Shown here in pieces: positions 4,109-31,258 of a DNA stretch of 36,304 nucleotides. Each line of letters starts with the position of its first letter. Within the stretch, counting starts at the first letter, position 1. Below the pieces are notes generated by a model. The model did no database searches, was not told where the DNA came from, and saw nothing but the letters and a program-made list of their open reading frames with translations. Both the position numbers and the translations under genes were made by a program. The DNA lies in assembly GCA_029067355.1 (NCBI GenBank), contig JAIEEQ010000066.1:1-36304 (forward strand), written 5' to 3'. Source of the DNA: Anaeroplasmataceae bacterium. GTDB taxonomy: Bacteria; Bacillota_I; Bacilli_A; Acholeplasmatales; Anaeroplasmataceae.

Positions 4109-4134
4109 ACTTGCTGTAAAGGAGAGTGAAGAAT

Positions 4135-4575
4135 TTGAAAATTGAAATAGAACTTGATGAAAATTGTGCAGAAACAAAAGTTATCATTCTTGCCAACAAA
4201 ATGACAGAGGAAATATCAAATGTAATGCAAATTCTATCAAACACAAACGTAATAGAGCTTATTGGATTTAATCATAATACCGCAACCTTTTTGAATCCAG
4301 CTGATATTCTTCGGATTTATGCAAGCAATGGAAAGGTCTTTGCTGTTACAGATAACGAAGAATACGTCTTACGTTTACGCCTATATGAAGCAGAGGAAAA
4401 GCTAAAGGATAAAGGATTTGTAAGAATTTCAAATTCTGAAATTATTAATAGCAAAAAGGCAAAAAAGTTTGATTTGAATATTACAGGAACAATTTGTGTA
4501 ACGCTATCAAACAAAACAACAAGTTATGTATCAAGAAGATATGTAACAAAAATTAAAAAAGCATTAGGGATATGA
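4135..4575 (+). CDS. LytTR-domain DNA-binding transcriptional regulator
   Basis: A 146-aa cytoplasmic regulator. The C-terminal ~95 residues form a LytTR DNA-binding domain: a LNPADILRIYASNGKVFAVT strand pair, a helix resembling the LYEAEEKL element, FVRISNSEIIN, then the SRRYVTKIKKALG end typical of the family. The N-terminus (KIEIELDENCAETKVII) matches the short non-response-regulator type that is usually encoded next to a DUF3021 membrane protein. I chose the TTG start at 4135: the strong AAAGGAG lies about 10 bases upstream, whereas the GTG at 4126 nearly abuts that site. The gene is on the lagging strand, opposite most of its neighbours. The phased repeats ahead of the promoter suggest autoregulation. 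Confidence 0.9.
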   Translation: MKIEIELDENCAETKVIILANKMTEEISNVMQILSNTNVIELIGFNHNTATFLNPADILRIYASNGKVFAVTDNEEYVLRLRLYEAEEKLKDKGFVRISNSEIINSKKAKKFDLNITGTICVTLSNKTTSYVSRRYVTKIKKALGI

Positions 4576-4584
4576 GGTGTTAAT

Positions 4585-5040
4585 ATGAAAAAAAATATTA
4601 TATTACGTAGTTTAATTGGGGCTCCTATTGGAGTAGTAATAAGTTTACTAATTACAATTATTATTTCAATTTGTATAGGAAATGGACAATACTATGCTGT
4701 TCCACGCGAGCTTATAAATCTATGCGGAAGTGAAATTGTTGCTGTGATTGTTCAGCTAAGTTGCTCCCTCATTGTAGGAGCAATAGGCGGTGCTTCTTCT
4801 ATAATATGGGGCATTGAATCTTGGAGCTTGTCCAAACAAACTCTAGTGCATATGGCTGTTCTTGTTATTCCTTATTTTCCAATCTCCTATTTATTGAATT
4901 GGATGCCACATCATTTGTATGGAGCACTAGCTTATATTGGAGCTTTTGTTGTTGCGTATGTAGGAATATGGGGATCAATCTATATTTCAATAAAATCAAA
5001 GATTAAAAAGATGAATAAATACATACAAGAGCTTGAATAA
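4585..5040 (+). CDS. DUF3021 family membrane protein
   Basis: A 151-aa integral membrane protein with four predicted transmembrane helices (about residues 8-32, 50-75, 85-108 and 113-135) and a short basic C-terminal tail. It follows the LytTR regulator by nine bases, with GAGGTG as ribosome binding site. LytTR plus DUF3021 is a common two-gene unit in Bacillota, in which the membrane protein is thought to modulate the regulator, by analogy with other LytTR-inhibitor pairs. What it senses is unknown. Confidence 0.85.
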   Translation: MKKNIILRSLIGAPIGVVISLLITIIISICIGNGQYYAVPRELINLCGSEIVAVIVQLSCSLIVGAIGGASSIIWGIESWSLSKQTLVHMAVLVIPYFPISYLLNWMPHHLYGALAYIGAFVVAYVGIWGSIYISIKSKIKKMNKYIQELE

Positions 5041-5074: not shown

Positions 5075-5398
5075 TCATTTAAGCTTTAAAGGATTAATTG
5101 AGCCATCATCATTGGGATGCTCATCTAAATATTTACGAATGGCTTCTGGCTTTCCAGATTTCAAGCCTGGCTTACAAAGTCCTAAGCTTTCAGCAGTTTG
5201 ATTTACAATTGCCTCAGCATAGCCTACACATCCTGGATACCCACAAGCACCACAATTTGCATTAGGTAAAATCCCTGTTATATCTTCTACTCTTGTATCA
5301 ACCTTAACATATAGGAACTTAGCAGCCACAGCCAATCCAAATCCAAAAAGCAATCCTAAGCCAGCCAATATTCCTATGGCAATAAAAACCTCTTTCAT
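5075..5398 (-). CDS. rnfB: Minimal RnfB: electron-transport complex subunit B without ferredoxin domains
   Basis: RnfB takes electrons from ferredoxin in the Rnf complex. This copy has the N-terminal membrane helix (residues 4-30) and the first [4Fe-4S] module: C49-x2-C52-x4-C57-x17-C75 within LPNANCGACGYPGC. It ends at residue 107. Usual RnfB proteins continue with one or more ferredoxin-like domains of two CxxCxxCxxxCP motifs; none is present. The stop is followed directly by a shared terminator, and I saw no ferredoxin frame beyond it, so this looks like a true short form and not a frameshift. The ATG overlaps the TGA of the upstream 75-aa gene (ATGA), with GGAGG inside that gene, so translation is coupled. 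Confidence 0.85.
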   Translation of the reverse strand: MKEVFIAIGILAGLGLLFGFGLAVAAKFLYVKVDTRVEDITGILPNANCGACGYPGCVGYAEAIVNQTAESLGLCKPGLKSGKPEAIRKYLDEHPNDDGSINPLKLK

Positions 5399-5622
5399 TC
5401 TTCTTCCTCCTTGCTTGCAAGCTCTTCTTTAATTTTTTTCAAATCTAATTTTTCATGAATCTTACAATCTGTGTTTGTGCAATTTAAGCAAAATTCATCA
5501 GATATCTTAATTTGCTCACAGCCCTTTGGAACAGGTGTTCTTTTATTTAAAACATAAGATACCACAAATAAAATCACTAGCAAAACTAGAATTGTAATTG
5601 CTAAACTAAGAAATGGATTCAT
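5395..5622 (-). CDS. 75-aa Cys-rich membrane protein inside the rnf operon
   Basis: One N-terminal transmembrane helix (residues 5-25) is followed by a short cytoplasmic segment with four cysteines, C35-x9-C45-x2-C48-x4-C53, and an acidic-basic tail (LDLKKIKEELASKEEEE). The CxxCxxxxC spacing is the same as in the RnfB cluster motif. The gene sits between rnfA (4 bases away) and rnfB (ATGA overlap), so it is expressed as part of the complex. It faintly resembles the FeoB-associated Cys-rich membrane proteins in layout only. I infer a metal or Fe-S binding accessory subunit of Rnf; the family is not one I know. Confidence 0.7.
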   Translation of the reverse strand: MNPFLSLAITILVLLVILFVVSYVLNKRTPVPKGCEQIKISDEFCLNCTNTDCKIHEKLDLKKIKEELASKEEEE

Positions 5623-5626
5623 AAGA

Positions 5627-6217
5627 TTATCCTATCATCCCTGACAAGCCTAAGAAAGCTAAGCTCATTAAAGCAGCTGTTGCTAGAGCAATAGGAATTC
5701 CTTTAAATGCCTTAGGAACATTTGCTGCATCTAAACGATAACGAATGCAGGAAAATACAAAAATCACTAAGGCAAAGCCTAGTCCTGTACCAATAGCTTC
5801 AGCCATAGACATTCCAAAGCTTAAGCCCTGACTGGAATTTCCTTGAGCAACACCCAATACAGCACAATTGGTAGTAATCAAAGGAAGATAAACGCCTAAA
5901 GCTTTATATAAGGATGGAGAAAATTTCTTAATAAACATTTCAACTAGCTGAACAATTGATGCAATAACCAGTATATACGTAATTGTATCCATATAAGCAA
6001 TACCACAATAATCAAGAAGTTGATAAATTGGCCAACATATAGCGGCAGCTAGAACAATAACAAAGGTTACTGCAACACCCATACCTAATGCAGAGGAGGA
6101 TTTTTTAGAAACACCCAAGAAGGGACATACACCATAAAATCTTGAAAGAGTAACATTGTTAATCAGCATTGCATTTGCAATTGCTAGTAAAAAAGCAACA
6201 ATTAAATTCCAAAACAT
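5627..6217 (-). CDS. rnfA: Rnf complex subunit RnfA
   Basis: Integral membrane subunit of the ferredoxin:NAD+ oxidoreductase (Rnf), which couples electron flow to Na+ or H+ pumping. The 196-aa length and six hydrophobic helices fit. NNVTLSRFYGVCPFLGVSKK and TNCAVLGVAQGN are the two conserved loops, whose cysteines, together with the pair in RnfE, hold the intramembrane iron-sulfur cluster. A GAGGAGGG ribosome binding site overlaps the end of rnfE. Confidence 0.95.
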   Translation of the reverse strand: MFWNLIVAFLLAIANAMLINNVTLSRFYGVCPFLGVSKKSSSALGMGVAVTFVIVLAAAICWPIYQLLDYCGIAYMDTITYILVIASIVQLVEMFIKKFSPSLYKALGVYLPLITTNCAVLGVAQGNSSQGLSFGMSMAEAIGTGLGFALVIFVFSCIRYRLDAANVPKAFKGIPIALATAALMSLAFLGLSGMIG

Positions 6218-6218
6218 T

Positions 6219-6974
6219 TTACTTTCCCTCCTCTTGACTTGCTTGCTTTGAAGCTAGCTCTGCAATCTTTTTTGCCTTTAATTCTTCAATTCTTTTTTTC
6301 TCAGCTAGAATTTTCTTTTCTTCCTTATGATTTCTGTAAAAGGACATAACTGCTAAAATACACCCTAAGGTTAAGAACCCACCAGCCGGAAGAATGAAAA
6401 GCTTAATTGCATAATCTGCTAAAGGAGTTATGCTTGTATAAGGAATGAATGTAAAATAAACCCCAAAGGTCAAGCCTCCCGTCCCCAAAAGCTCACGGAT
6501 AACTCCCATTATACATAATGCCATTGTAAAGCCTAGCCCCATGCCTAGAGCATCTAGCAAAGATAACAAAGGTCCATTTTTAGAAGCAAAGGCTTCTGCT
6601 CGACCTAGTATAATACAGTTTACAACAATCAAGGAAATAAATACCCCAAGACTTGCATAAAGCTCAGGAAGAAAGGCCTCTGCAAACATTTTAATGATAG
6701 TAACAAAGGTAGCAATAATGACGATGTAACATGGAATCTTTACTTCCAAAGGAATAATTTTACGCAAAAGAGAAATAAGAACATTTGATCCAATCAAGGT
6801 CAAAATAACTAACAATCCCATACCAAAGGCTGATTCTAAGGATTTCGTAGTAGCAAGTGTAGGACACATTCCAAGCAATCCTACAAGCACTGGATTTTCC
6901 TTAACAATTCCAGCCAAGAAAGCTTTTAAACGCATAGATTTTTCTTTTACTGGCTTTTCTTTTGACTGTTCCAT
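6219..6974 (-). CDS. rnfE: Rnf complex subunit RnfE with charged C-terminal tail
   Basis: Paralogue and inverted partner of RnfA in the membrane core. The family signatures ENPVLVGLLGMCPTLATTKS and VNCIILGRAEAFA carry the two cluster-binding cysteines. At 251 aa it is longer than usual: after the last membrane helix (ends about residue 212) come about 39 residues that are almost all charged or Ala (for example EEKKILAEKKRIEELKAKK), predicted to be a cytoplasmic helix. The start overlaps the rnfG stop. Confidence 0.94.
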   Translation of the reverse strand: MEQSKEKPVKEKSMRLKAFLAGIVKENPVLVGLLGMCPTLATTKSLESAFGMGLLVILTLIGSNVLISLLRKIIPLEVKIPCYIVIIATFVTIIKMFAEAFLPELYASLGVFISLIVVNCIILGRAEAFASKNGPLLSLLDALGMGLGFTMALCIMGVIRELLGTGGLTFGVYFTFIPYTSITPLADYAIKLFILPAGGFLTLGCILAVMSFYRNHKEEKKILAEKKRIEELKAKKIAELASKQASQEEGK

Positions 6975-7525
6975 TAGTTTATTCCTCCTTGTCTAGTTTT
7001 AGCATCATCAAAGGCTGATTTAACTAAACTACGTATCAGCTTAGAAGCATAGGTGGCCCCTGCTGTAACATCAGAATTTTTCAAATCAAGATTGTCCACA
7101 TCTGCTTCCGTCATATTTTCTTTATAGGAATTATTCAAATGTGTATCAGCCTCGCTAGAAAAGGATTGTCCATTTGTAATAAAACGAACACCAGCCAGCT
7201 TAGAATCCGCTGTAATTCCTAACAACAATTCAATTTTTCCGTAGGCATTGGAACCCTCTACTGTATAAATATATCCTAAAAATTCCCCAGTAGAATCGTA
7301 AGCCATAATGATTTCCTTAATACTTTTAGAGGAAAACCCTTCTGTAATAATCGTTGATTGATCTACTGTATAGGCTTCAAAGACTTCCTGACATAGTTTA
7401 GCCTTTCTTTCTTCATTGTTTTTCTGAATAATTGGAGCTGTAACCAAATTAATACAAGCGATTAGTGCCGCACACATTCCAGCAATTAATGTGAGAACTA
7501 AAGCAGTTAATGTATATTTTTTCAT
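6974..7525 (-). CDS. rnfG: Rnf complex subunit RnfG
   Basis: A 183-aa protein with one N-terminal membrane helix (about residues 6-28) and an extracytoplasmic FMN-binding domain. FMN is normally attached covalently by ApbE to the Thr of an [S/T]GAT-type motif; here it reads DVTAGATYASKLIRS near residue 158, with Ala in place of the Ser before Gly, a common variant. YGKIELLLGITADSKLAGVRF is the conserved FMN-domain strand pair. It abuts rnfD and overlaps rnfE. Confidence 0.94.
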   Translation of the reverse strand: MKKYTLTALVLTLIAGMCAALIACINLVTAPIIQKNNEERKAKLCQEVFEAYTVDQSTIITEGFSSKSIKEIIMAYDSTGEFLGYIYTVEGSNAYGKIELLLGITADSKLAGVRFITNGQSFSSEADTHLNNSYKENMTEADVDNLDLKNSDVTAGATYASKLIRSLVKSAFDDAKTRQGGIN

Positions 7526-7526
7526 C

Positions 7527-8663
7527 TTATAGCCCTCCTAACTGTGAGGCAACAGAGAAGCCAACAATTAAACAAATGACAATCATTGTCAAGCTTAAAC
7601 CTAATAGTTGTTTCCAAGTATAGGTGTTCTTCTTTCCTCTCATCAAATAATCCATTGTTGGAGCAAACATATTTACAATTAGAATGGAGAATGCAACTCC
7701 TTCTGGATAAGCACCACAATATCTTACGAGTGCTGTAATAATACCTGCCATAGCACCAAAAGCAATTCTACCAAATTTGGTGGTTGGAGAGGTTACAGGA
7801 TCTGTTATCATAAATACTGCACCAAATAAAAGACCACCCGAAAGCATTTCATACATAAACAATTCAAATATATTCCATTCACTACCTAAATGAGGTTGAT
7901 TACTCCATACACAGTATGCTGTAATACTTACAACCAGCGTAATGATAGCAAAGCTTCCTATCATAGATAAGCAAGCTCTTAAATCCGCACTTCTTCTTAC
8001 AAATAAATAAATTCCACCAACAAGAATCAGTAAGGAACAAACCTCTCCCATAGATCCAGGAATTTGTCCTAAAAATAAATCAAGCAGGCTATACTCATTT
8101 AAGGCTTCTCCTATCATCCCTAGATTCTCTTTTACTATTGCAAGTGGTGTACCAGATGCAGAAACATCTACTCCACCTTGACCGTAAACCAACTTAGAAC
8201 CAAAACACACTCCAACAAATACACGTCCTGTTGCGGCAGGGTTAAAAATATTACTTCCCAAACCACCAAAAATCATCTTACCAATTAAGATGCCAAATAA
8301 AGCTCCAATAAACACAACATACCCCGAACAGCCCGCTGGCATAATCAATGCATAAATCAGAGCTGAAATTAATGGTGCAATGATATTATTGATGGTGTAC
8401 TGACGCTTTACCTTTAAAAATCCTTCTTTACTAAATAATTCCTTTATTTTCATACCACTAGGCCATTTGATAAACATATGACAAATAAGTTCAGTTACAA
8501 GCATAGTAGCAATGGAAATTAAAACCACATACACTCCATTCCATCCATTTTGAATACAGGCGAATAAAACAACTGGAAGTAATGCAATTAAAACATCTAG
8601 CATCATCCGCCGAACAGATACTGGCTTACGAATGTATGGAGCGCTTTGAGCAACTAATTTCAT
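7527..8663 (-). CDS. rnfD: Rnf complex subunit RnfD
   Basis: Polytopic membrane subunit (378 aa, about ten helices), related to NqrB. It carries a covalently bound FMN at the Thr of SGTPLA (DVSASGTPLAIVKEN, near residue 175) and the family signature GGLGSNIFNPAATGR. MLSGGLLFGAVFMITDPVTSP is the second conserved block, near residue 270. It follows rnfC by 11 bases with AGGAGGG as ribosome binding site. Confidence 0.95.
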   Translation of the reverse strand: MKLVAQSAPYIRKPVSVRRMMLDVLIALLPVVLFACIQNGWNGVYVVLISIATMLVTELICHMFIKWPSGMKIKELFSKEGFLKVKRQYTINNIIAPLISALIYALIMPAGCSGYVVFIGALFGILIGKMIFGGLGSNIFNPAATGRVFVGVCFGSKLVYGQGGVDVSASGTPLAIVKENLGMIGEALNEYSLLDLFLGQIPGSMGEVCSLLILVGGIYLFVRRSADLRACLSMIGSFAIITLVVSITAYCVWSNQPHLGSEWNIFELFMYEMLSGGLLFGAVFMITDPVTSPTTKFGRIAFGAMAGIITALVRYCGAYPEGVAFSILIVNMFAPTMDYLMRGKKNTYTWKQLLGLSLTMIVICLIVGFSVASQLGGL

Positions 8664-8674
8664 ATTCTTCCCTC

Positions 8675-9964
8675 CTATACCATTCTTTTTGCCTTACGAC
8701 AATAATCTGTTAAATGTATTTTAGAGGTACAGGTATAAGTACACATACCACATAGAATACAAGCTTTTATATTGAGCTTGTTTAATGCATCCTTATCTTT
8801 ATTCTTAACTGCTTGCATAATTTGAACAGGCTGTAATCCGGCTGGACAAGAATATACACAGGACGCACAGCGTACACAAGGCTCCTCACGAACAGGTCTT
8901 TCATTCAGTACAATGGTAGAGGTACAGGTTTTGGTGATAACCGCATCATCTCGAACTAAGTTTGCCCCCATCATAGGTCCCCCCATAATTAAAACCTTAT
9001 TCTCTTCGCCTTTATACCCACCACAAACATCAATAAGCTCCTTTAAGGAGGTTCCAATTCTTAATCGGATATTCTGAGGAATATTAATACCATCTCCAGA
9101 TAATGTATAATTCCTTTTTGTAACAGGCTGATTATATTTGATTGCACGATATAACCCAACGATTGTTGAAACATTGAATACCATAAGTCCAAGTTTTGCT
9201 GGTAATACTCCAGCAGGAACCCTAATTCCTAAGGCAGATTTAATCATTTCAATTTCCCAGCCCTGAGGATAATAATTCCCTACACGACATACCTCAATAT
9301 TCAAGTCTGGAAACCTTGTCAATTCTGCGGTTAAGCAATCATACAAATCCTGATATTTCTTTTTAATGCAAATTAATCCCTTTTTTGCTTTAAATGCTTT
9401 CATCGCATAACTGGCTCCCAATATGACACGTCTTGGATGCTCAAGCATCATTCTGTGATCAGAAGAAATGTAGGGCTCACACTCAACACCATTAATTAAA
9501 ATGGTGTGAATAGGATCCTTTGTCTGAAATTTAATATACGTTGGAAATGAGCTTCCTCCTAATCCAACTAAAGAAACCTCTTTTGTAATCCTAGCAAAAT
9601 CGTCTAATGTCAGCTGATCAATTTCTTCATCCGTTCTTGGAATTTCTGGACTAATCCACTCATCCTTTTTATCATTCTTAATTTGAACAAATTCAGTCAG
9701 TTTTCCGCTACGATGAAATTTTTTCACAAATCCAACGACTTCTCCTGAAACCGTAGAATGAATGGGTTGTTCAAAAAATGGTCCCTTACGAATCCCAATG
9801 ACTTGTCCTATTTTAACCTTATCTCCTGCCTTAACAAAGATATCACTTGTTGCACAACGAGCATTGGTAACGGCCATATAAATATATTCTGGCTCTAGAT
9901 ATCTAAGCGTAGGTAAGCTGGTTGTAGAAACTACACCTGTAATTTGTCTTGTCTTTCCTATCAC
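8675..9964 (-). CDS. rnfC: Rnf complex subunit RnfC
   Basis: Peripheral cytoplasmic subunit that binds FMN and NADH and passes electrons by two [4Fe-4S] clusters. The N-terminal part has the barrel-sandwich segment (KAGDKVKIGQVIGI) and the NuoF-like domain (VSLVGLGGSSFPTYIKF, then ILINGVECEPY). The clusters are at C363-x2-C-x2-C-x3-C373-P and C402-x2-C-x2-C-x3-C412. Length 429 aa, the compact form. The start is GTG behind an excellent AAGGAGG eight bases upstream. It opens the rnf operon, in the clostridial order C-D-G-E-A-B with one extra gene. Confidence 0.96.
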   Translation of the reverse strand: MIGKTRQITGVVSTTSLPTLRYLEPEYIYMAVTNARCATSDIFVKAGDKVKIGQVIGIRKGPFFEQPIHSTVSGEVVGFVKKFHRSGKLTEFVQIKNDKKDEWISPEIPRTDEEIDQLTLDDFARITKEVSLVGLGGSSFPTYIKFQTKDPIHTILINGVECEPYISSDHRMMLEHPRRVILGASYAMKAFKAKKGLICIKKKYQDLYDCLTAELTRFPDLNIEVCRVGNYYPQGWEIEMIKSALGIRVPAGVLPAKLGLMVFNVSTIVGLYRAIKYNQPVTKRNYTLSGDGINIPQNIRLRIGTSLKELIDVCGGYKGEENKVLIMGGPMMGANLVRDDAVITKTCTSTIVLNERPVREEPCVRCASCVYSCPAGLQPVQIMQAVKNKDKDALNKLNIKACILCGMCTYTCTSKIHLTDYCRKAKRMV

Positions 9965-21029: not shown

Positions 21030-22163
21030 TTAATGACTTTTTAATTTTTCAGCAAGGGCTTCAATCTGCTTACTGCTACTATCATTTACTTTAGATTTAA
21101 TTGTAACCCCTTCTTCTAAGATTGTTAAATTCTTAGATGAACTAAAATACTGAGTTATATATTTTTTTGCAGTAGGTGCCCATGACCCATTTTCTATAAT
21201 TCCTATGGTTCTATTTTGAAAATCACGTTCAACCAATCCATGCATAAACGCTTCTACTGGCGGGAAAACACCATTATTATATGTTGGAGAGGCTATTACT
21301 AATTTTGAATATTGAAAAGCTTTACTGATTGCTGATGCCAAATCACATCTAGCTAAATCAAAAACTTCTACTTTTGTATTTTCTAACTTAGAAGTAAGCT
21401 CCTCTACCGCCTTTTTTGTATTCCCATAAATAGATGCATAGGCAATACAGATACCTTCCTCTTCTGGCTGGTAGCTAGACCAAGTTTGGTATAATCCTAA
21501 ATAATAAGAAAGATGATCTTGTAGGATTGGACCATGCAATGGATAAATTCTACATATTTCTAATCCTGAAACCTTTTTAAAAAGATTTTGCACAGGCACC
21601 CCATATTTCCCTACAATTCCAATATAATATCTTCTGGCTTCTTCCTTCCAGTCTTCTTCAATATCTAACGCTCCAAATTTGCCAAACGCATCAGCCGAAA
21701 ATAAGGATTTAGTAAAAGGCTCATAAGCCATCATGACCTCTGGCCAATGAACCATAGGAGCAAAGACAAATTTTAAAGAATACTTACCAAGCTCAAGTAT
21801 CTCTCCTTCTTTCACAATCATTCTGTTTTTTATTGATAAACAAGGAAAGAACTGATCAATCATAGTGAAGGTTTTTGTATTTCCTACAAGTGTTATGTTA
21901 GGATACTCTTTTATAAATCGTTCTATACTTGCTGAATGATCAGGCTCCATATGTAGGATAACCAAATAATCTGGAAGTTTATCTGCCAGCACCTTTTTAA
22001 CATTTTCAATCCATTCCTCTGCAAAATGAATATCAACTGTATCCATAATTGTTATTTTTTCATCCAAAATTATATATGAGTTATAACTCATTCCATTTGG
22101 GACCTTATACTGTCCCTCAAATAAATCAACTTTATGATCATTTACACCAACATATTGAATCAT
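21030..22163 (-). CDS. FprA-type flavodiiron protein (O2/NO reductase)
   Basis: A 377-aa soluble A-type flavoprotein that reduces O2 to water and/or NO to N2O, protecting anaerobes. The N-terminal metallo-beta-lactamase-fold domain holds the diiron ligands H71-x-E73-x-D75-H76, H139, D157 and H210. The flavodoxin domain from about residue 240 (IAYASIYGNTKKAVEEL) binds FMN. The start ATG is chosen for AGGT upstream, six bases in from the GTG of the longest frame. It follows the NrnA-like gene by only nine bases and is probably cotranscribed with it. Alongside Rnf it supports an anaerobic lifestyle. Confidence 0.94.
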   Translation of the reverse strand: MIQYVGVNDHKVDLFEGQYKVPNGMSYNSYIILDEKITIMDTVDIHFAEEWIENVKKVLADKLPDYLVILHMEPDHSASIERFIKEYPNITLVGNTKTFTMIDQFFPCLSIKNRMIVKEGEILELGKYSLKFVFAPMVHWPEVMMAYEPFTKSLFSADAFGKFGALDIEEDWKEEARRYYIGIVGKYGVPVQNLFKKVSGLEICRIYPLHGPILQDHLSYYLGLYQTWSSYQPEEEGICIAYASIYGNTKKAVEELTSKLENTKVEVFDLARCDLASAISKAFQYSKLVIASPTYNNGVFPPVEAFMHGLVERDFQNRTIGIIENGSWAPTAKKYITQYFSSSKNLTILEEGVTIKSKVNDSSSKQIEALAEKLKSH

Positions 22164-22172
22164 TTTCACAAC

Positions 22173-23368: not shown

Positions 23369-25231
23369 TTAAGCTGTCTGTGATAATACAAAATCAATCT
23401 GAGCAATCCATAACTGATTGGTATTTCCACTTGTAACATTTTTAATAGTTACAGTATTACCATTAACAACATAAGCACCATTCTCTCCAACTGTTAAAAT
23501 ATTTTCAGCAGAAGTTGATACTTGTAGAACGCCACCTTTATCGCCTGTTGCAATAGTTACAGTAATACTATCAATTTTATAGCCCTCAATAACTTTGAAT
23601 GTTAAAGAACATCCATTACCTTCTTTATTGCCATAAAGTCTGATTTCTGCACCATTTTTCAAATATGGGTTGTTAGCATATTCCTCACCACTGCTGCTTG
23701 TACCAGTAACAGCGGTATAAGTTACATCGAAAACATAATCATTAAGACCTAAAGCAGTAACAGGATTAGCAAATGTATGAATTTGACCTGCTTTATCCAC
23801 TGTGCTCTTTGCGGTTGCAGAAGTTAAAGGTGTTTCTGGCTTTGTTGGTGTCGTTGGGGTTTCTGGCTCTGGATCTGGTGTTGGATCAGTAGAAGTTGAA
23901 GGTGCTTTCTTTAATACAACTTGTAATAAAGCATTCTTAACTTGCTTAGATCCATTATATTCATCCATAGGTCCATAAACGGCAATAACATCACCAACAG
24001 CTAACTTTTCTTCAGCTTTCCAAGAATCATAACGAACAGCGCCAGTAGAATTCCATACACCATCAGGATAGTTCTTGTCATTATCTCCTTGATATAGACC
24101 ATATAAGTAAATTTCTTTTCCAGAAGCATCTTTTAAGTAAATATTACCATATTTGTCATTTACAATACTCTTAACTTCACCATATACACTTAAGAAATCA
24201 CCCTTAGCAACCTCTAAAGCATCAGATACTGTTAAGAATGGATAATCTTGAATTAAACAGTTCTTAACTTCCTCTGTTGTATTATAAGTATCTCTTTGAC
24301 CATATACATAAACATAATCGCCAACAGCTAACTTCTCTTCAGCTTTCCAAGAGTCATAACGAACAGCATCAGTAGATGACCAAGTACCATTTGCATAGTT
24401 CTTATCAACTGAACCTTGATATAATCCGTAAATTTCAATTTCTTTACCTGCTTCATCAACAATCCAGAAGTTACCATACTTATCAGAAGCAATGCTCTTA
24501 ATTCTACCTTGAACAGAAATTAATGCATCCTTAGGTTGAGCTAAAGCATCTGTAACAGTTAAGAATGTTATTTCTTTTGATACGCGTGTTTTAACATCTT
24601 TCTCTACAACTATTGTACCAGCAGTTGCTTTAACCTTTATAAATACATTTTCAGATCCAGTTTCTGGGTCTAAAGTTAATTGTGTTCCTTCTAACTTAGC
24701 AGTCGCATAAGTGCCACCTAAAGAATATTCAAATGTAATTTCATCCTTATATTCATTAGATTTAGCAGGTAAATCTAAGACTACTTTTTCATTATAAGAA
24801 GCTTTTACACCTGTATTAGAAATTGCAGTATTTAAAGCTTTTTCAGCATCAATCATTTGAACAGTTGTTTTAAATTCATAAGATGCTGTTTGACCACCTG
24901 CTGTAACAGATGCAGTTAATTTTACTTCTGTATCTACATCAAATGGAAGCTTAACATCTGCCGTATATTGTGTATCATTGTTCTCAATTATATTTAATAC
25001 TGATGTGTCACTTGAAACCCAAGAAACATCATAGGTTTCAGAATTGTGTTTTACAATCTTAGGGATTGCAAAGTCCTCAGAAACCTTTGTCCCATCCTGT
25101 GTTAATATAACTTTATTCAAAATTTCTTCTGCTAAAGAAACTTTTGAATCATCATTGCCACAAGATGTCATTGCTGTAATTCCTAATGTAGCTAATAAAC
25201 CACATGCGGCGATCTTTCCAATTTTTTTCAT
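23369..25231 (-). CDS. Surface lipoprotein with atrophied Ig-like domains and two tandem OB-like repeats
   Basis: Signal peptide with lipobox AMTSC (Cys 24). Residues about 33-220 look like two degenerate bacterial Ig-like domains (VSWVSSDTSVLNI is typical). Residues 223-331 and 332-440 are direct repeats of an OB-like unit (FLTVTDAL, IKSI..DKYGN, EIYLYGLYQG, DSWKAEEKLAVGD, VYG). A Thr/Pro linker (about 445-470) precedes a C-terminal beta domain (475-620) ending in LWIAQIDFVL. OB units of this kind often accompany extracellular nucleases and bind nucleic acid or sugar; no catalytic motif is seen. Last gene of the operon, 26 bases after the nuclease. Role inferred: nucleic-acid capture at the surface. 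Confidence 0.75.
   Translation of the reverse strand: MKKIGKIAACGLLATLGITAMTSCGNDDSKVSLAEEILNKVILTQDGTKVSEDFAIPKIVKHNSETYDVSWVSSDTSVLNIIENNDTQYTADVKLPFDVDTEVKLTASVTAGGQTASYEFKTTVQMIDAEKALNTAISNTGVKASYNEKVVLDLPAKSNEYKDEITFEYSLGGTYATAKLEGTQLTLDPETGSENVFIKVKATAGTIVVEKDVKTRVSKEITFLTVTDALAQPKDALISVQGRIKSIASDKYGNFWIVDEAGKEIEIYGLYQGSVDKNYANGTWSSTDAVRYDSWKAEEKLAVGDYVYVYGQRDTYNTTEEVKNCLIQDYPFLTVSDALEVAKGDFLSVYGEVKSIVNDKYGNIYLKDASGKEIYLYGLYQGDNDKNYPDGVWNSTGAVRYDSWKAEEKLAVGDVIAVYGPMDEYNGSKQVKNALLQVVLKKAPSTSTDPTPDPEPETPTTPTKPETPLTSATAKSTVDKAGQIHTFANPVTALGLNDYVFDVTYTAVTGTSSSGEEYANNPYLKNGAEIRLYGNKEGNGCSLTFKVIEGYKIDSITVTIATGDKGGVLQVSTSAENILTVGENGAYVVNGNTVTIKNVTSGNTNQLWIAQIDFVLSQTA
23912..24238 (-). repeat. 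OB-like repeat unit B (109 codons)
   Basis: Second copy of the in-frame repeat; shares long nearly identical DNA with unit A around AVRYDSWKAEEKLAVGD. Confidence 0.8.
24239..24565 (-). repeat. OB-like repeat unit A (109 codons)
   Basis: First copy of the in-frame repeat, directly joined to unit B. Equal length and high local DNA identity point to a fairly recent tandem duplication. Confidence 0.8.
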
Positions 25232-25257
25232 TTAAACTTTTCCTTTCCTCTATTTTG

Positions 25258-26535
25258 CTACTCTAAAATAGTTACATCATCCACTGATACAACTCTAATT
25301 TGTTTTGTACCATTGAAAGTTTCAATCAATCCAACAACCGTGATTGTTTTTCCCTTGAAATAATCTTCTGTAATTATTTCATAGTTTTCAGTTCTAAGTA
25401 TAGATGTACGAACAGTAACTGTCTTTCCATCAACTAAACCAGTAATTGTTATAGCTCCTGCACTAGAACCCGTAGTTGTTGTATATACGCTTGTTACTGA
25501 AATGTTTTCTAACTTTACTAGCATTCTTTCTGTATCGTTAGAAGCATTTATTAAATCATTTGCAGTTAAAGTGGTTGTAATTACTTCATAATTTTCCTCT
25601 AATAAAGTAATATTTTTTAAAGATTGTACACCAATATCTTGCATATTGGAAATTTGAACCATTCCATTGTATTCCTGAACATTTCCATAAATAGAAACGC
25701 GATTTCCTGGAACAAGCTTTTTGGTGTTCAAGTTATATCCCTTATACAATAACATAGAATAAACAGTTTCTGTTTCAGCATCATAATCCTGAGCATAAAC
25801 ATATAATCCATCTTCTTTTGTTATTGTACAATCAAATTTAACAGCAATTGCATCATTAATCAATTTTGTTTGATTCTCTATAATATATTTAATTGTAACT
25901 TCTTGTGCATCACCATAATAATAATTTGGATCCTTTTCTTTGCCTTTGCTGAAAACCTTTATCCCTTGTATAACGGCTTGAGCATTTGCTTTTTCAAATT
26001 GAGAAGAATATAGCTTTATAGAGGAGTATTTACCATAAGATAAACCCTCTTGAACTAATTCAAGATTCAACAATCTGTAATCTGCTGAGCTACTTTCTCT
26101 ATACCAAACATAAGTTAAATAACGATTACCCGTAGTATCAATTTGAGCAGGACCACCATCACTTTGAACAACAATAGAATCTGCATTTTCTAATTTACTT
26201 GCTGTAAATTTAGAAGCTGTTTTTCCCCATTCTTCTACTTGACCAGTGGATTCTGGAGTATCTACACCCAAAAAGCGTGCAGTAAATTCTTGTCCATTTG
26301 CCTTAAATACAGCAGTATCTCCATCTACGCATCGTAAAAGTTCAGCAAAAGCAACTCCATCTTCTCCAAAGAATGAATGATCTGATGTAACAGAAAACCC
26401 TAATTTAGTTTCTGAAACATAGTCAACAAATTCTGGTGTATTAGGTTCTTCCTCTTTGTTATCATTACAGGAAGAAAATAAACCAATGCTAAATATAAAG
26501 CACAATATGAATAATACTTTGCGTATGTTTTTCAT
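25258..26535 (-). CDS. Surface-anchored thermonuclease (SNase) lipoprotein with C-terminal OB-like domains
   Basis: Signal peptide with lipobox LFSSC (Cys 23). Residues about 60-200 are a staphylococcal-nuclease domain: calcium-site D73, R87, D92-T93, E95 and R138. Their spacing equals D21, R35, D40-T41 and E43 of the S. aureus enzyme exactly, with the last Arg one residue shorter (51 instead of 52), so the enzyme should be active on DNA and RNA with Ca2+. Residues about 210-425 hold two OB-like units (VPGNRVSIYGNVQEYNGMVQ; KGKTITVVGLIETFNGTKQI). It sits 24 bases after the binding-protein gene in the same operon as a complete ABC importer, which suggests it feeds the transporter. Confidence 0.92.
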   Translation of the reverse strand: MKNIRKVLFILCFIFSIGLFSSCNDNKEEEPNTPEFVDYVSETKLGFSVTSDHSFFGEDGVAFAELLRCVDGDTAVFKANGQEFTARFLGVDTPESTGQVEEWGKTASKFTASKLENADSIVVQSDGGPAQIDTTGNRYLTYVWYRESSSADYRLLNLELVQEGLSYGKYSSIKLYSSQFEKANAQAVIQGIKVFSKGKEKDPNYYYGDAQEVTIKYIIENQTKLINDAIAVKFDCTITKEDGLYVYAQDYDAETETVYSMLLYKGYNLNTKKLVPGNRVSIYGNVQEYNGMVQISNMQDIGVQSLKNITLLEENYEVITTTLTANDLINASNDTERMLVKLENISVTSVYTTTTGSSAGAITITGLVDGKTVTVRTSILRTENYEIITEDYFKGKTITVVGLIETFNGTKQIRVVSVDDVTILE

Positions 26536-26559
26536 TTACATCAACTCTTTTTTTAGTTT

Positions 26560-27981
26560 TTAGTCTTCACATTCAAGAATGGCATCTCTAAATGCTTTAT
26601 CAATTGTTTTTGTTTCAGTAATAGCTGCAACAAATAATGCTCCTACTTGATCACGAGCCTTAGAAGAACCATTAAATGCAGGTGAAGTATAATAATTATC
26701 AATAAATTCAGAAGATTTCTTTGCAGTTAAAGCTGCTAAACCATCTGCTGACTTTCCATTTCCTGTTGCTAACCAATCAGCATATGTTCCCTTATCTGCT
26801 AAATTACCCTTTGTATAAACAGAGTTTAATACTGGGTTGTAACCACTCGCATTAGAGAATGCAGCTTGGAAATCTGTATCTAATAAATAGTCCTTAATGA
26901 AAATCCAGCTTGCTAATACTCTTTGTGGATTATCTTCCTTATTTAGAATACATAAGCTTGGTCCCTGAGAAATAACCTTGAATTCTCCATTTTCCCATGT
27001 TGGAATAGCAGTTACATCTACTTCAAATGATTTATTTGATGGATATTGGTGAGCAGCTCCACCAGTAGATCCAATAGACATAAAGCTATACTTTGTATTA
27101 GATCCATTATTATAAGTTGCTGGATCATAAGCAGTAAACAAAGATGATGTATAAGTAGTTAAGATAGTTTGAGTTGTAAATAATCCTTCTTGATACCACT
27201 CAAGGAATTTTTGAACATAGCTTCTGTTTTCTGCATTGTCAAATAAGAAATGATTGCTACCAGAAGCAGTTGTATATGCAGACCCTGTTTGCTCACATAA
27301 AGTGATAAATAAGTTTGCCTCACTATCAATTCCTAAAGGAATAACATTAGGATATTTTGTAGAACCATCTTCATTTTTCATATTCTTAATTGTTCTACAT
27401 AATTCCATTATTTCTTGCCATGTTCCAGGTACACTCCATTTATTTTCATCAAATACTGTTTTATTATAATATAATACCTCAGTAGATTTTGAGAAAGGAA
27501 TTGTGTACATTAAATCATCGCCAAATTGCTTTCCTTCGGCATAATACCCAGGAACAAAATCATCTAATTGCTCTTGAGTAAATCCATAGGTAGGATCATT
27601 AATTAAATTATCCAATTGAACTACGGCATTTGCTCTGTTATAAAGAGCAACATGGTCTGGGTAACAATATGCAATATCTGGCTCCAAACCTTGTGGAATT
27701 TCAGTTGAAATTTGATTTCTAACTGCATCATAGTTACCAATTTGCTGAGAATTAATCTTAATGTTAGGATAATCAGCTTGGAACTTATCAATTGCTGTTT
27801 GTAGGATAGCCTGTAAATTGGTTCCCATTGTGTGATAGAACTCGATTGTCATTTCTTTTGATGTATCAAGTCCTCCCTCTGGAACAACATAGTTTGCTTG
27901 TCTTTTTCCGCCACCACAGCTTGCAAGAGCCAAAGCCAATCCTGCTGTTACTCCAGCTAATAAAAACTTTCTTGCTTTCAT
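26560..27981 (-). CDS. ABC importer extracellular solute-binding lipoprotein (family 1, CUT1 type)
   Basis: 473 aa. Lipobox LALASC (Cys 22) anchors it outside. MTIEFYHTMGTNLQAILQTA, FQADYPNIKIN, YYNKTVFDENKWSVPGTWQE and a long C-lobe match the MalE/UgpB-type fold, length typical. By family it would bind oligosaccharides or glycerol-3-phosphate-type ligands; the adjacent nuclease suggests a nucleotide or (deoxy)ribose-phosphate product, which is inference. Start ATG with AAGGAG about 11 bases upstream; 61 bases after the permease gene. Confidence 0.92.
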   Translation of the reverse strand: MKARKFLLAGVTAGLALALASCGGGKRQANYVVPEGGLDTSKEMTIEFYHTMGTNLQAILQTAIDKFQADYPNIKINSQQIGNYDAVRNQISTEIPQGLEPDIAYCYPDHVALYNRANAVVQLDNLINDPTYGFTQEQLDDFVPGYYAEGKQFGDDLMYTIPFSKSTEVLYYNKTVFDENKWSVPGTWQEIMELCRTIKNMKNEDGSTKYPNVIPLGIDSEANLFITLCEQTGSAYTTASGSNHFLFDNAENRSYVQKFLEWYQEGLFTTQTILTTYTSSLFTAYDPATYNNGSNTKYSFMSIGSTGGAAHQYPSNKSFEVDVTAIPTWENGEFKVISQGPSLCILNKEDNPQRVLASWIFIKDYLLDTDFQAAFSNASGYNPVLNSVYTKGNLADKGTYADWLATGNGKSADGLAALTAKKSSEFIDNYYTSPAFNGSSKARDQVGALFVAAITETKTIDKAFRDAILECED

Positions 27982-28042
27982 TTTCTTTGTTTCTCCTTTT
28001 GTCTTTCTTTTTTAAAGCTTGAAATTTATATTAAAGGCAATT

Positions 28043-28957
28043 TTAGCCCTTAATACCACTCTTAGATACACCCTTCATAATGTATTTTCTGAAGAATATA
28101 AAGATAATAATCAATGGCAATGACACCATAACAACGCCCGCCATTTTCATAGGGAAGTGAGTCATATTGGTCTGCTCATCAACAAAGCTATTGGTTAACC
28201 AGTTTGAAATCAACTGGAAATTTTTGTCTTTGTTAACTAGTCTTGGCCAAATATAGGAATTCCATGAGCCCATTACCTTCAAAATTCCAATTGAGGTAAT
28301 TGTTGGACTTGCTAATGGAATCATAACCTTCATTAGATATTTCATATCACTTGTACCATCTACCTTTGCAGCATAGTACAAGGAATCAGGAATTTGCATA
28401 AATGCATTTCTTAACAAATACACATAAAATATAGATACCAAGAATGGAACAATTAAAACCGTATAGGAGTTTGTCCATCCTAGATTTGCCACAGTAGCAA
28501 AGTTTGAAATTGTAAACAATTCTCCTGGTACCATCATAGTAGCTAGCAAAATTGTAAACACTAAATTTTTTCCCTTAAATTCAAGTCTTGCGAATGCAAA
28601 GGCGGCAAGAATAATAACCACCATAGATAAAACCGTAGATACAATAGCTATAATAACTGTATTAAGCATATCTCTAGCAAAATAGTTTACCTGAGCTGCA
28701 TTTATATAATTTTCAAAGACAAAATTTTTAGGAAAATAGGTTGGGACTAACAACAAATATTCATCCATAGTTTTAAAGGATGTATTTAGCATCCAATAAA
28801 ATGGGAACAAAGTTGTAATAGCAACAATAACTAAAAATATGTAAATAAAAACCTTAGTAATTATTTTTATTACGTTTTGACGCTTAATTGCCTTTTGTAT
28901 TTTTTCTTCAGAATCAAATACAGGAGTTTGTACGGGTGCTTGTAAATTATTTTCCAT
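28043..28957 (-). CDS. CUT1-type ABC importer permease (MalG/UgpE-like)
   Basis: 304 aa, six transmembrane helices from about residue 30. The EAA loop near residue 200 reads YYAAKVDGTSDMKYLMKVMI-PLASP, which contacts the ATPase. The start FYWMLNTSFKTMDEYLLL is typical of the MalG side. It follows the MalF-like gene by 12 bases with AGGAGG. Confidence 0.94.
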   Translation of the reverse strand: MENNLQAPVQTPVFDSEEKIQKAIKRQNVIKIITKVFIYIFLVIVAITTLFPFYWMLNTSFKTMDEYLLLVPTYFPKNFVFENYINAAQVNYFARDMLNTVIIAIVSTVLSMVVIILAAFAFARLEFKGKNLVFTILLATMMVPGELFTISNFATVANLGWTNSYTVLIVPFLVSIFYVYLLRNAFMQIPDSLYYAAKVDGTSDMKYLMKVMIPLASPTITSIGILKVMGSWNSYIWPRLVNKDKNFQLISNWLTNSFVDEQTNMTHFPMKMAGVVMVSLPLIIIFIFFRKYIMKGVSKSGIKG

Positions 28958-28969
28958 GTCTTCTTCCTC

Positions 28970-29911
28970 CTAAAAATGTACTCTCTTTTTATTTACTTGG
29001 AATTGAACGATTGTTAAAAGTAAAATAATAACAAACAGTGCTAATGCCATAGCAGAGGCACGACCATAGTCCGTAGTTTCTATGAATTCATAAATTCTTG
29101 CAACAACGGTGTTCATACGGCCCTGATCACCAATAGGCCCCATATTGTCTGCACCAAACACTCCAACAACAGATGAATATTCCTTAAATGCTCCAATAAA
29201 CCCTGTTACAAATAAATATGAAATCATTGGCGAAAGTAACGGAACAGTAATTTTCGTTAAAACTCTCCATTTTGGAGTACCATCAACCTTTGCAGCATCA
29301 TAATATTGTTTATTTACAGATTGTAATGCACCAGATAAAATAAGGATTTTAAATGGTAATGCACTCCAAACGATGTAAACAACCAACACTGTTATATTTG
29401 CCGCATAAGATGAGCCTGGTCCCATCCAGTTCACCGGTCCGATTCCAAACCATCCTAGGAAAGTATTAATAATTCCCTCTGCACCAGAAGACCCCTGAGA
29501 AACAGACTGGAACATTAATGCAAATACTGATCCAATTGCCAATGCATTAGTTACATAAGGTAAAAAATAAATTGTCTGAAAAAGTTTTTGCAATGGTTTA
29601 ATGCTATTTAATGCTACTGCAATTAATAAAGCAATAACTATTGACAAAGGAACGGTAAATACAACCAATATTGCTGTATTTCCTAATGCCCTAAGAAATT
29701 TAATAGAAGATGCGCTTCCATCAAATAATTTTCGGTAATTTTCAACACCAATCGTAAAGTCTGCATATCCAGAAGCAGCGTCCATACCATTATAATTATT
29801 TATAAAGGAATAAACGATGGTGGAAATCATAGGGTAAAATGTAAATATAGCCATAAGGATTAAGGCTGGAGCTAAAAACAACCACGCCTTTTTGGTGTTT
29901 AATCCTTCCAT
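28970..29911 (-). CDS. CUT1-type ABC importer permease (MalF/UgpA-like)
   Basis: 313 aa, six transmembrane helices. The EAA loop is YYDAAKVDGTPKWRVLTKIT followed by VPLLSP. WLFLAPALILMAIFTFYPMI is the usual N-terminal helix. It forms the heterodimeric pore with the MalG-like protein. It lies 12 bases after the ATPase gene with GAGGTGGG as ribosome binding site. Confidence 0.94.
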   Translation of the reverse strand: MEGLNTKKAWLFLAPALILMAIFTFYPMISTIVYSFINNYNGMDAASGYADFTIGVENYRKLFDGSASSIKFLRALGNTAILVVFTVPLSIVIALLIAVALNSIKPLQKLFQTIYFLPYVTNALAIGSVFALMFQSVSQGSSGAEGIINTFLGWFGIGPVNWMGPGSSYAANITVLVVYIVWSALPFKILILSGALQSVNKQYYDAAKVDGTPKWRVLTKITVPLLSPMISYLFVTGFIGAFKEYSSVVGVFGADNMGPIGDQGRMNTVVARIYEFIETTDYGRASAMALALFVIILLLTIVQFQVNKKRVHF

Positions 29912-29923
29912 TTAACCCACCTC

Positions 29924-31066
29924 TTATTCTTCAGTTGAGGTTTTGTCAACCTCATCATTAGTTTCTTCACTTTGTTTCTCTTTTATAAATAAATCTTCCT
30001 TACCTAAGCGAATTTCAGTCTGTCGATTAAATAAGAATACTTTGCTTGGTTTTAAATTGAATTTAACAACACCAGTTGCAGGAATCTTCGTATCCACATC
30101 AACAATTGCACGTAGAGTTGGCTTTTCACATTGTTCATTTTTAGCAACAATAGAAATATCTCTACCCATAACCTCTAATTGTTGTACATTACAAGAAAAT
30201 ACTCCCTTATCAGAAACAATAAATCCTTCTGGACGAATACCAACATAAATTTCTTGATCAGCAAATTCTGTATCCATTATTGCTTCATTGCCAATATAAA
30301 CCTTGTGATTTTTGATTTCTCCTGAAAAAATATTAATTGGAGGCGTTCCTAAAAATTTAGCAACAAACAAGTTCACAGGATCATCATAAACTCTCTGTGG
30401 CTCATCTACCTGTTGCACAACTCCCTCTTTCATAACCACAATAAAATCAGAAATGCTCATTGCTTCCTCTTGGTCATGAGTAACGAAAATTGTAGTTACT
30501 CCAGTTTCACGCTGGATTCTTTTAATTTCCTCTCTTGTTTGTAATCTTAAACGAGCATCTAGGTTGGACAATGGTTCATCTAATAATAACACATTTGGAT
30601 TTTTGACAAGAGCACGAGCAATAGCAACTCTCTGCTGCTGTCCTCCTGATAATTCAGCAGGCTTTCTGTCAAGCAAATTGTCAATTTGAACAAGCTTTGC
30701 TACTGCTAAAGCTCTATCATTTGCCATTTTTTTACTAACCTTTTGATTTGTTAATGGGAAAGTAATGTTTTTCAAAACTGTCATATGTGGGTATAATGCG
30801 TAGTTTTGGAATACTAATCCAATTCCTCTTTTTTCTGCTGCTAGATGTGTTACCTCAGCATCACCAAAGAAAATTTGTCCAGAAGTAGGAACCTGTAATC
30901 CACTAATCATAAACAATGTTGTAGATTTACCACATCCAGATGGTCCTAATAAGCCAACCAATTTTCCATCAGGAATCTCGATGTCTAGATTATCAACTGC
31001 TCTAACTTCGGATTGAGTCTTTTTGTTAGTAAAGACTTTAGTTAAATTCTTAAGTACAATCTTCAT
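29924..31066 (-). CDS. CUT1-type ABC importer ATPase (MsmK/UgpC/MalK-like)
   Basis: 380 aa. Walker A GPSGCGKSTT, Q-loop LVFQNYALYPHMTV, signature LSGGQQQRVAIARAL, Walker B NVLLLDEPLSNLDARL, switch VTHDQEEAMS, and a C-terminal TOBE region (YVGIRPEGFIV). I start at the ATG behind AAGGGG; the longer frame adds residues with no family similarity. First gene of the operon. Such ATPases can serve several sugar importers, but here the whole transporter is encoded together. Confidence 0.94.
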   Translation of the reverse strand: MKIVLKNLTKVFTNKKTQSEVRAVDNLDIEIPDGKLVGLLGPSGCGKSTTLFMISGLQVPTSGQIFFGDAEVTHLAAEKRGIGLVFQNYALYPHMTVLKNITFPLTNQKVSKKMANDRALAVAKLVQIDNLLDRKPAELSGGQQQRVAIARALVKNPNVLLLDEPLSNLDARLRLQTREEIKRIQRETGVTTIFVTHDQEEAMSISDFIVVMKEGVVQQVDEPQRVYDDPVNLFVAKFLGTPPINIFSGEIKNHKVYIGNEAIMDTEFADQEIYVGIRPEGFIVSDKGVFSCNVQQLEVMGRDISIVAKNEQCEKPTLRAIVDVDTKIPATGVVKFNLKPSKVFLFNRQTEIRLGKEDLFIKEKQSEETNDEVDKTSTEE

Positions 31067-31160
31067 TTTTAAACCCCTTATTTTTTTCTTACGAAGAATT
31101 TTGTTTATGTGCAATAGCAATAAAAAAGAAACACCAAACAAAAAATTTCTTTCTATTTTA

Positions 31161-31169
31161 ATTGTAACA
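31161..31169 (-). promoter_or_regulatory. Extended -10 promoter of the ABC importer/nuclease operon
   Basis: TGTTACAAT on the minus strand (TG-N-TACAAT), about 95 bases ahead of the ATPase start. The -35 is weak. Confidence 0.5.
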
Positions 31170-31258
31170 TAGCCAAGCAAAAAAGAAAATAGAAAAAAGT
31201 ATTTTTGCCAAGCTTTTTTTATAAATTTTTGGAATTGAAAAACAAAATGTAACTTTTA

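Follow-up and report, generated by a model that had tools for sequence, protein, structure and literature searches.

The rnf operon and a small gene between rnfA and rnfB

The window, a stretch of 36,304 nucleotides from an Anaeroplasmataceae bacterium (contig JAIEEQ010000066.1), carries a full six-gene Rnf set (RnfC, D, G, E, A and B) in one operon with the gene order C-D-G-E-A-sm-B, in which 'sm' denotes a gene for a small membrane protein (Table 1). An earlier reading made from the sequence alone had placed a 75-aa reading frame between rnfA and rnfB and proposed that it is translationally coupled to rnfB. Both proposals were confirmed: the stop codon of sm and the start codon of rnfB overlap in an ATGA, and the AAGGAGG that serves rnfB lies inside sm. 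The RnfB of the window is 107 aa long, lacks a Fer4 domain and has PF04060 as its sole domain match; it consists of a transmembrane (TM) segment and the FdI domain and nothing more, which places it with the short RnfB of the Thermotoga maritima type. The absence of Fer4 does not exclude an Rnf complex because T. maritima has an RnfB shortened in this way (PMC7414866).

Elsewhere in the window, a LytTR regulator and a DUF3021 membrane protein form a pair (4126-5040, plus strand) that converges with the end of the rnf operon. A flavodiiron-like protein, by appearance an A-type flavoprotein (21030-22169, minus strand), is a further redox protein on the contig, and putative lipoproteins (23369-31180, minus strand), one with OB-fold-like repeats and one with a nuclease-like domain, adjoin a sugar-type ABC transporter.

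Table 1. Features of the rnf operon and of sm in the window, and reduced sm versions in other genomes (positions preceded by a locus name refer to that locus)
Feature	Position	Strand	Basis or remark
Small membrane protein gene (sm)	5395..5622	-	75 aa, MNPFLSLAITILVLLVILFVVSYVLNKRTPVPKGCEQIKISDEFCLNCTNTDCKIHEKLDLKKIKEELASKEEEE
rnfB, short form	5075..5398	-	107 aa, TM + FdI (PF04060) only
rnfA	5627..6217	-	TIGR01943 above cut-off
rnfE	6219..6974	-	TIGR01948 above cut-off
rnfG, FMN-binding domain	6974..7525	-	PF04205; TIGR01947 under cut-off
rnfD	7527..8663	-	PF03116
rnfC, both C-terminal [4Fe-4S] motifs retained	8675..9964	-	TIGR01945 above cut-off
ATGA overlap of sm stop and rnfB start	5395..5398	-	sequence
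AAGGAGG Shine-Dalgarno serving rnfB, within the 3' end of sm	5406..5412	-	sequence
Predicted transmembrane helix of sm, residues 3-28, then basic NKR	5539..5616	-	AF2 model, pLDDT >90 in first two thirds
Cysteine segment of sm, C35-x9-C45-x2-C48-x4-C53	5464..5520	-	sequence
Predicted charged C-terminal helix of sm, residues 54-74	5398..5463	-	AF2 model
sm versions of 35-41 aa	L292:537-656, L293:491-610, L295:1689-1859, L296:336-506

The small protein is under purifying selection

The four cysteines of sm (C35, C45, C48 and C53) form the pattern C-x9-C-x2-C-x4-C. Its C-x2-C-x4-C core is common to sm and the RnfB motif NCGACGYPGC, and the suggestion that sm repeats the spacing of the RnfB cluster motif was borne out for this core. 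In the AF2 model (mean pLDDT 82), a Cys-bearing loop joins the helix of residues 3-28 to that of residues 54-74, and the positive-inside rule predicts that the C-terminal side is cytoplasmic.

Within the GTDB family of the window, sm is present in 40 of 55 genomes, and N26, P32 and all four cysteines are invariant in 41/41 distinct homologues. Differences from close relatives fall mainly in third codon positions, and dN/dS, where computable, was 0.03-0.22 against these relatives, indicating strong purifying selection. Because of its occurrence in the family, the low dN/dS and the invariant residues, we conclude that sm is a real, selected gene, far above chance. Thirteen of the 15 family genomes without sm are also without an RnfB-type FeS domain; the other two (G008 and G020) hold only an unread frame of 354 aa and a fragment that does not resemble RnfB. 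Searched against Pfam with E up to 1, sm matched no family; in NCBIfam, the sole match was an unrelated hypothetical protein (E = 0.14). The gene thus supplies a sequence family that no model found in Pfam or NCBIfam covers, and the protein was previously unnamed.

Occurrence across genomes

A scan of genome contigs with a search pattern that contained the first cysteine (Cys1) yielded 80 sm loci, which belong to Anaeroplasmataceae, Acholeplasmatales, Erysipelotrichaceae (Faecalitalea, Holdemanella, Faecalicoccus, Bulleidia, Solobacterium and others), Haloplasma and two Leptotrichiaceae MAGs. The gene lies directly before rnfB in 80/80 loci and directly after rnfA in 79/80, the contig of the remaining locus (L105) beginning before rnfA. 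In all 80, the RnfB frame is 94-187 aa long and has no Fer4 motif, the longest being that of Haloplasma (187 aa). The latter, from a Haloplasma MAG (L131:1978-2538), has two FdI-like C-x2-C-x4-C motifs and lacks Fer4. A further 39 in-operon loci, sampled without bias, have an RnfB of 93-148 aa in every case (39/39). A plasmid search with a relative gave no match.

Relatives of sm span the window's class and a few Fusobacteriota. Across genomes of the class, a PF04060 match was found in 118/120 genomes with sm versus 23/127 without it, a co-occurrence for which the Fisher test ignores relatedness and is descriptive only. Class matches to PF04060 of ~390-430 and 560-630 aa were rejected as RnfB, the examples read being hydrogenase-like proteins. 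At L174, L175, L176 and L178, PF04060 is C-terminal in hydrogenase-like proteins of ~390-430 aa and 575 aa, which are possible false RnfB calls.

The small gene accompanies the short RnfB

The sequence-only reading had asked whether sm occurs only where RnfB is short, and the Fusobacteriota agree with this. Among 98 genomes of this phylum, sm was found at E < 1e-19 in four, and the same four are the genomes with a short RnfB (109-130 aa; 4/4), versus 0/61 genomes with RnfB frames of 294-443 aa; the 30 long loci that were read have 2-5 Fer4 motifs each. Within the window's class, genus g76 (family f7) has a long RnfB with rnfA abutting and no sm; this RnfB is 286 aa long in G182, and in G281 the long form is truncated by the contig end. 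We further compared 141 rnfA-rnfB pairs. A short RnfB with sm in the operon accounts for 92 of them and a short RnfB without sm there for 18, while the remaining 31 have a Fer4-bearing RnfB (198-347 aa), including those of E. coli (198 aa) and Vescimonas (308 aa). The opposing case, sm in an operon with a long RnfB, was found in none of these 31 pairs.

In an RnfA tree of 128 rows, one branch (100/95) separates all long-RnfB rows from all short-RnfB rows, and the four short rows of Fusobacteriota are nested within the Bacilli side. This nesting argues that the short operon, including sm, moved into Fusobacteriota as a unit. Since short and long forms correspond to one deep split in the tree, the correlation rests on few independent events; the association of sm with the short RnfB is nevertheless real, and stable over long times and through transfer. 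From this linkage, we are confident that sm is functionally part of the Rnf class with a short RnfB. The linkage, together with the absence of sm where RnfB is long, further indicates that sm is very probably a component or an accessory of Rnf.

Copies outside the operon and reduced versions

In families f5, f7, f17 and f22, rnfA and rnfB abut and an sm paralogue is found elsewhere in the genome. Several of these paralogues (L149, L150, L154-L157, L266-L274, L285) are flanked by a dCMP deaminase gene (comEB) on one side and by aspS or an E1-like gene on the other; in them, Cys1 is usually absent and a new C-terminal cysteine is present instead. Others (L152, L153, L275-L277, L281, L282) lie between phosphomutase-like (pgm) and uracil-DNA-glycosylase-like (ung) genes. 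The identities of the aspS, dCMP deaminase, phosphomutase and uracil-DNA-glycosylase neighbours come from reading their sequences. Two paralogue loci adjoin CsoR/copper-ATPase-like genes. One is a second sm copy near the Haloplasma rnfB (L131:3285-3515), with a CsoR-like gene and a copper-type ATPase after it, and the other is an sm-like ORF (L166:4675-4848) in a copper/heavy-metal cluster with CopZ, CsoR and P-type ATPase-like neighbours. Such neighbours also suggest metal binding.

No sm was found in three genomes with a true short RnfB (G229, G275 and G092; 89, 82 and 55% complete, respectively), and in a fourth (G120; 97% complete, short RnfB) sm is absent from the operon. G288 and the f12 genomes have degenerate or 35-41 aa in-operon copies that the profile missed or barely touched. 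The 35-41 aa versions, located between rnfA and rnfB in genomes of 0.8-0.9 Mb, consist of one TM and 3-4 cysteines with a CxxC-type tail, and gene callers could readily overlook them. G069 and second rnf operons have rnfA abutting rnfB, with no sm between. Rnf-type operons without sm also occur in family f14 (L180, L181, L182 and L183), of which at least two genomes (G129 and G102) carry an sm operon as well, giving two Rnf types in one cell.

Conservation of the cysteines

All 80 loci of the contig scan have four cysteines, a count that we discarded as evidence because the search pattern held Cys1, and replaced with the 39 in-operon loci drawn without the Cys1 pattern. The core C-x2-C-x4-8-C is present in 39/39 of these, and Cys1 in 28/39; the other 11 have the three core cysteines only. 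Outside the GTDB family, the spacing between the first two cysteines is 4-9 and Cys1 is not universal. The proposed conservation of four cysteines therefore stands in part: the core is universal in full-size in-operon copies, and Cys1 is kept in most of the unbiased sample. Among 32 out-of-operon copies, 11 have a cysteine upstream of the core (shifted further upstream in two), 17 have none upstream but a C-terminal one, and 4 have three cysteines only. At least four cysteines are thus present in 28/32, and several lineages without Cys1 have gained a cysteine elsewhere. As judged from sequence, the pattern points to a putative metal site that prefers four thiolates and tolerates three.

Proposed function

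Many fermenting anaerobes have Rnf as their main redox-driven ion pump. We tentatively favor, at somewhat less than even confidence, the reading that sm is a dedicated component of the short-RnfB Rnf acting at electron entry. One TM helix would anchor a short cytoplasmic tail, whose three or four cysteines may bind iron or an Fe-S cluster. The protein would work at the face of RnfA/E where electrons enter, beside the mobile FdI of the short RnfB, and would help soluble ferredoxin deliver electrons to a complex whose RnfB has lost its own ferredoxin domains. The role at electron entry is favored because of the link of sm to the short RnfB, and a component of this kind is further supported by the co-transfer of sm with the operon in the RnfA tree, its retention in the 0.8-0.9 Mb genomes, its remote likeness to the metal-linked FeoB_associated family, and the paralogues beside copper-resistance-like genes. 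Cysteine spacing that is more variable than expected for a rigid cluster site counts against it, as do the in-operon copies with the three core cysteines only, the copies away from rnf in four families, the active six-subunit Rnf with a short RnfB in T. maritima (PMC7414866), the few independent events behind the correlation, and G069 and the second rnf operons without sm.

In a stricter form, which we consider possible but rather unlikely, sm would be the seventh subunit of Rnf and, as a [4Fe-4S] (or three-Cys ligated) peptide with one TM, would take the place of the RnfB ferredoxin arm. Strict compensation for the lost domains, as proposed in the sequence-only reading, is opposed by the activity of the one-cluster Rnf of T. 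maritima with six reported genes (PMC7414866), by the absence of Cys1 in part of the in-operon sample and by the lineages in which sm lies far from rnf. The copies at aspS/comEB and pgm/ung in four families would fit a non-stoichiometric helper better than a subunit. If the seventh-subunit reading is true, the electron-input module of a whole class of gut bacteria would consist of two tiny membrane-anchored cluster carriers. The gene is worth including in any purification or heterologous expression of short-RnfB complexes, for example those of gut species of Erysipelotrichaceae.

Comparison with known families and complexes

FeoB_associated proteins (PF12669) resemble sm in having one TM and a Cys-rich tail, with a similarity of 13.8 versus a maximum of 10.2 for shuffled controls, but differ in their Cys pattern. 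Membership in this family was rejected, as the best score was 19.4 bits against a cut-off of 27 and the E-values of sm members were weak; the similarity is remote only. No feoB was recognized by eye beside sm in the neighborhoods read, and the genome of the window holds a separate, weak PF12669-like gene. The weak similarity and the paralogues near copper-type and housekeeping genes would suit a general small metal-binding membrane protein that is carried along by the operon clade and has no Rnf-specific task. We regard this as very improbable, given that sm co-occurs with Rnf at the genome level, is absent with the long RnfB, is kept in reduced genomes and was transferred together with the operon.

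NqrM (DUF539, PF04400), a small membrane protein, is reportedly necessary for the intramembrane [2Fe-2S] of NQR (PMC12174285). Like sm, it has ~75 aa with an N-terminal TM, a basic turn and a short Cys-rich cytoplasmic tail, and it travels with an Nqr/Rnf-type pump, serving the Nqr counterpart of RnfA/E. In contrast to NqrM, sm has no KGSCGG motif and no match to the PF04400 HMM. Homology was rejected on comparison with NqrM sequences collected from nqr operons, in which the match stemmed from the TM and the cytosolic parts scored 10.5 versus up to 15.9 for shuffled columns. An assembly factor of the NqrM kind, which would deliver iron or a cluster to the [2Fe-2S] of RnfA/RnfE or to the FdI of RnfB and stay outside the working enzyme, is nonetheless the chief rival to the favored reading and a distinct possibility, if not a probable one. 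The shared layout, the copies at housekeeping loci, the variable number of cysteines and the 35-41 aa versions all suit a helper, and NqrM itself was not found in the 20 genomes of the set that were searched (without a positive control). Against this reading, sm and NqrM show no homology outside the TM; moreover, the RnfA/E site is the same in the long-RnfB Rnf, which has no sm, leaving the link to the short RnfB unexplained by assembly.

Respiratory complexes commonly contain helper peptides with one TM, and the TM and tail of sm might stand in for the lost RnfB domain by keeping FdI or RnfC in position, without a redox role. The soluble part of RnfB, which in long-RnfB complexes is firmly bound to RnfC (PMC9588780), is missing here, which counts for such a structural helper. 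We consider this unlikely, however, as it leaves unexplained the retention of the core cysteines everywhere, even in the 35-41 aa versions. In the long-RnfB complexes, FdI (B8) swings to RnfA/E and feeds the intramembrane [2Fe-2S] (PMC11889175). The Rnf complexes of C. tetanomorphum and A. woodii (7zc6, 9eri) have homologous RnfA and RnfB, but their RnfB carries 6-8 clusters (PMC9588780, PMC11889175), and no seventh subunit was described. No chain related to sm is present in the solved Rnf entries of the PDB; a PDB fold search with sm gave no match and a PDB sequence search nothing useful.

FdI of RnfB itself (PF04060; C-x2-C-x4-C-x16-C here) shares with sm the C-x2-C-x4-C core and a TM on the N-terminal side. 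The alignment of the sm and RnfB profiles is mostly TM, with C-x2-C-x4-C in register. Unlike FdI, sm has its fourth cysteine on the N-terminal rather than the C-terminal side and gives no PF04060 match.

The short RnfB itself is already known from T. maritima, the only case returned by a literature search (mostly open-access papers) for sm or a short RnfB in these groups. Its RnfB has 10.56 kDa and one predicted cluster, and consists of FdI only according to Vitt et al. (PMC9588780); the gene order rnfCDGEAB and the single [4Fe-4S] (FdI) domain are as in the window (PMC7414866; PMC9588780), but the published description has no small gene between A and B. The purified complex, for which six subunits were reported, uses C. 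pasteurianum ferredoxin as an electron donor and pumps Na+ (PMC7414866). This work raises the question of how an RnfB with a single cluster accepts electrons from ferredoxin, and sm is a concrete candidate for the missing factor.
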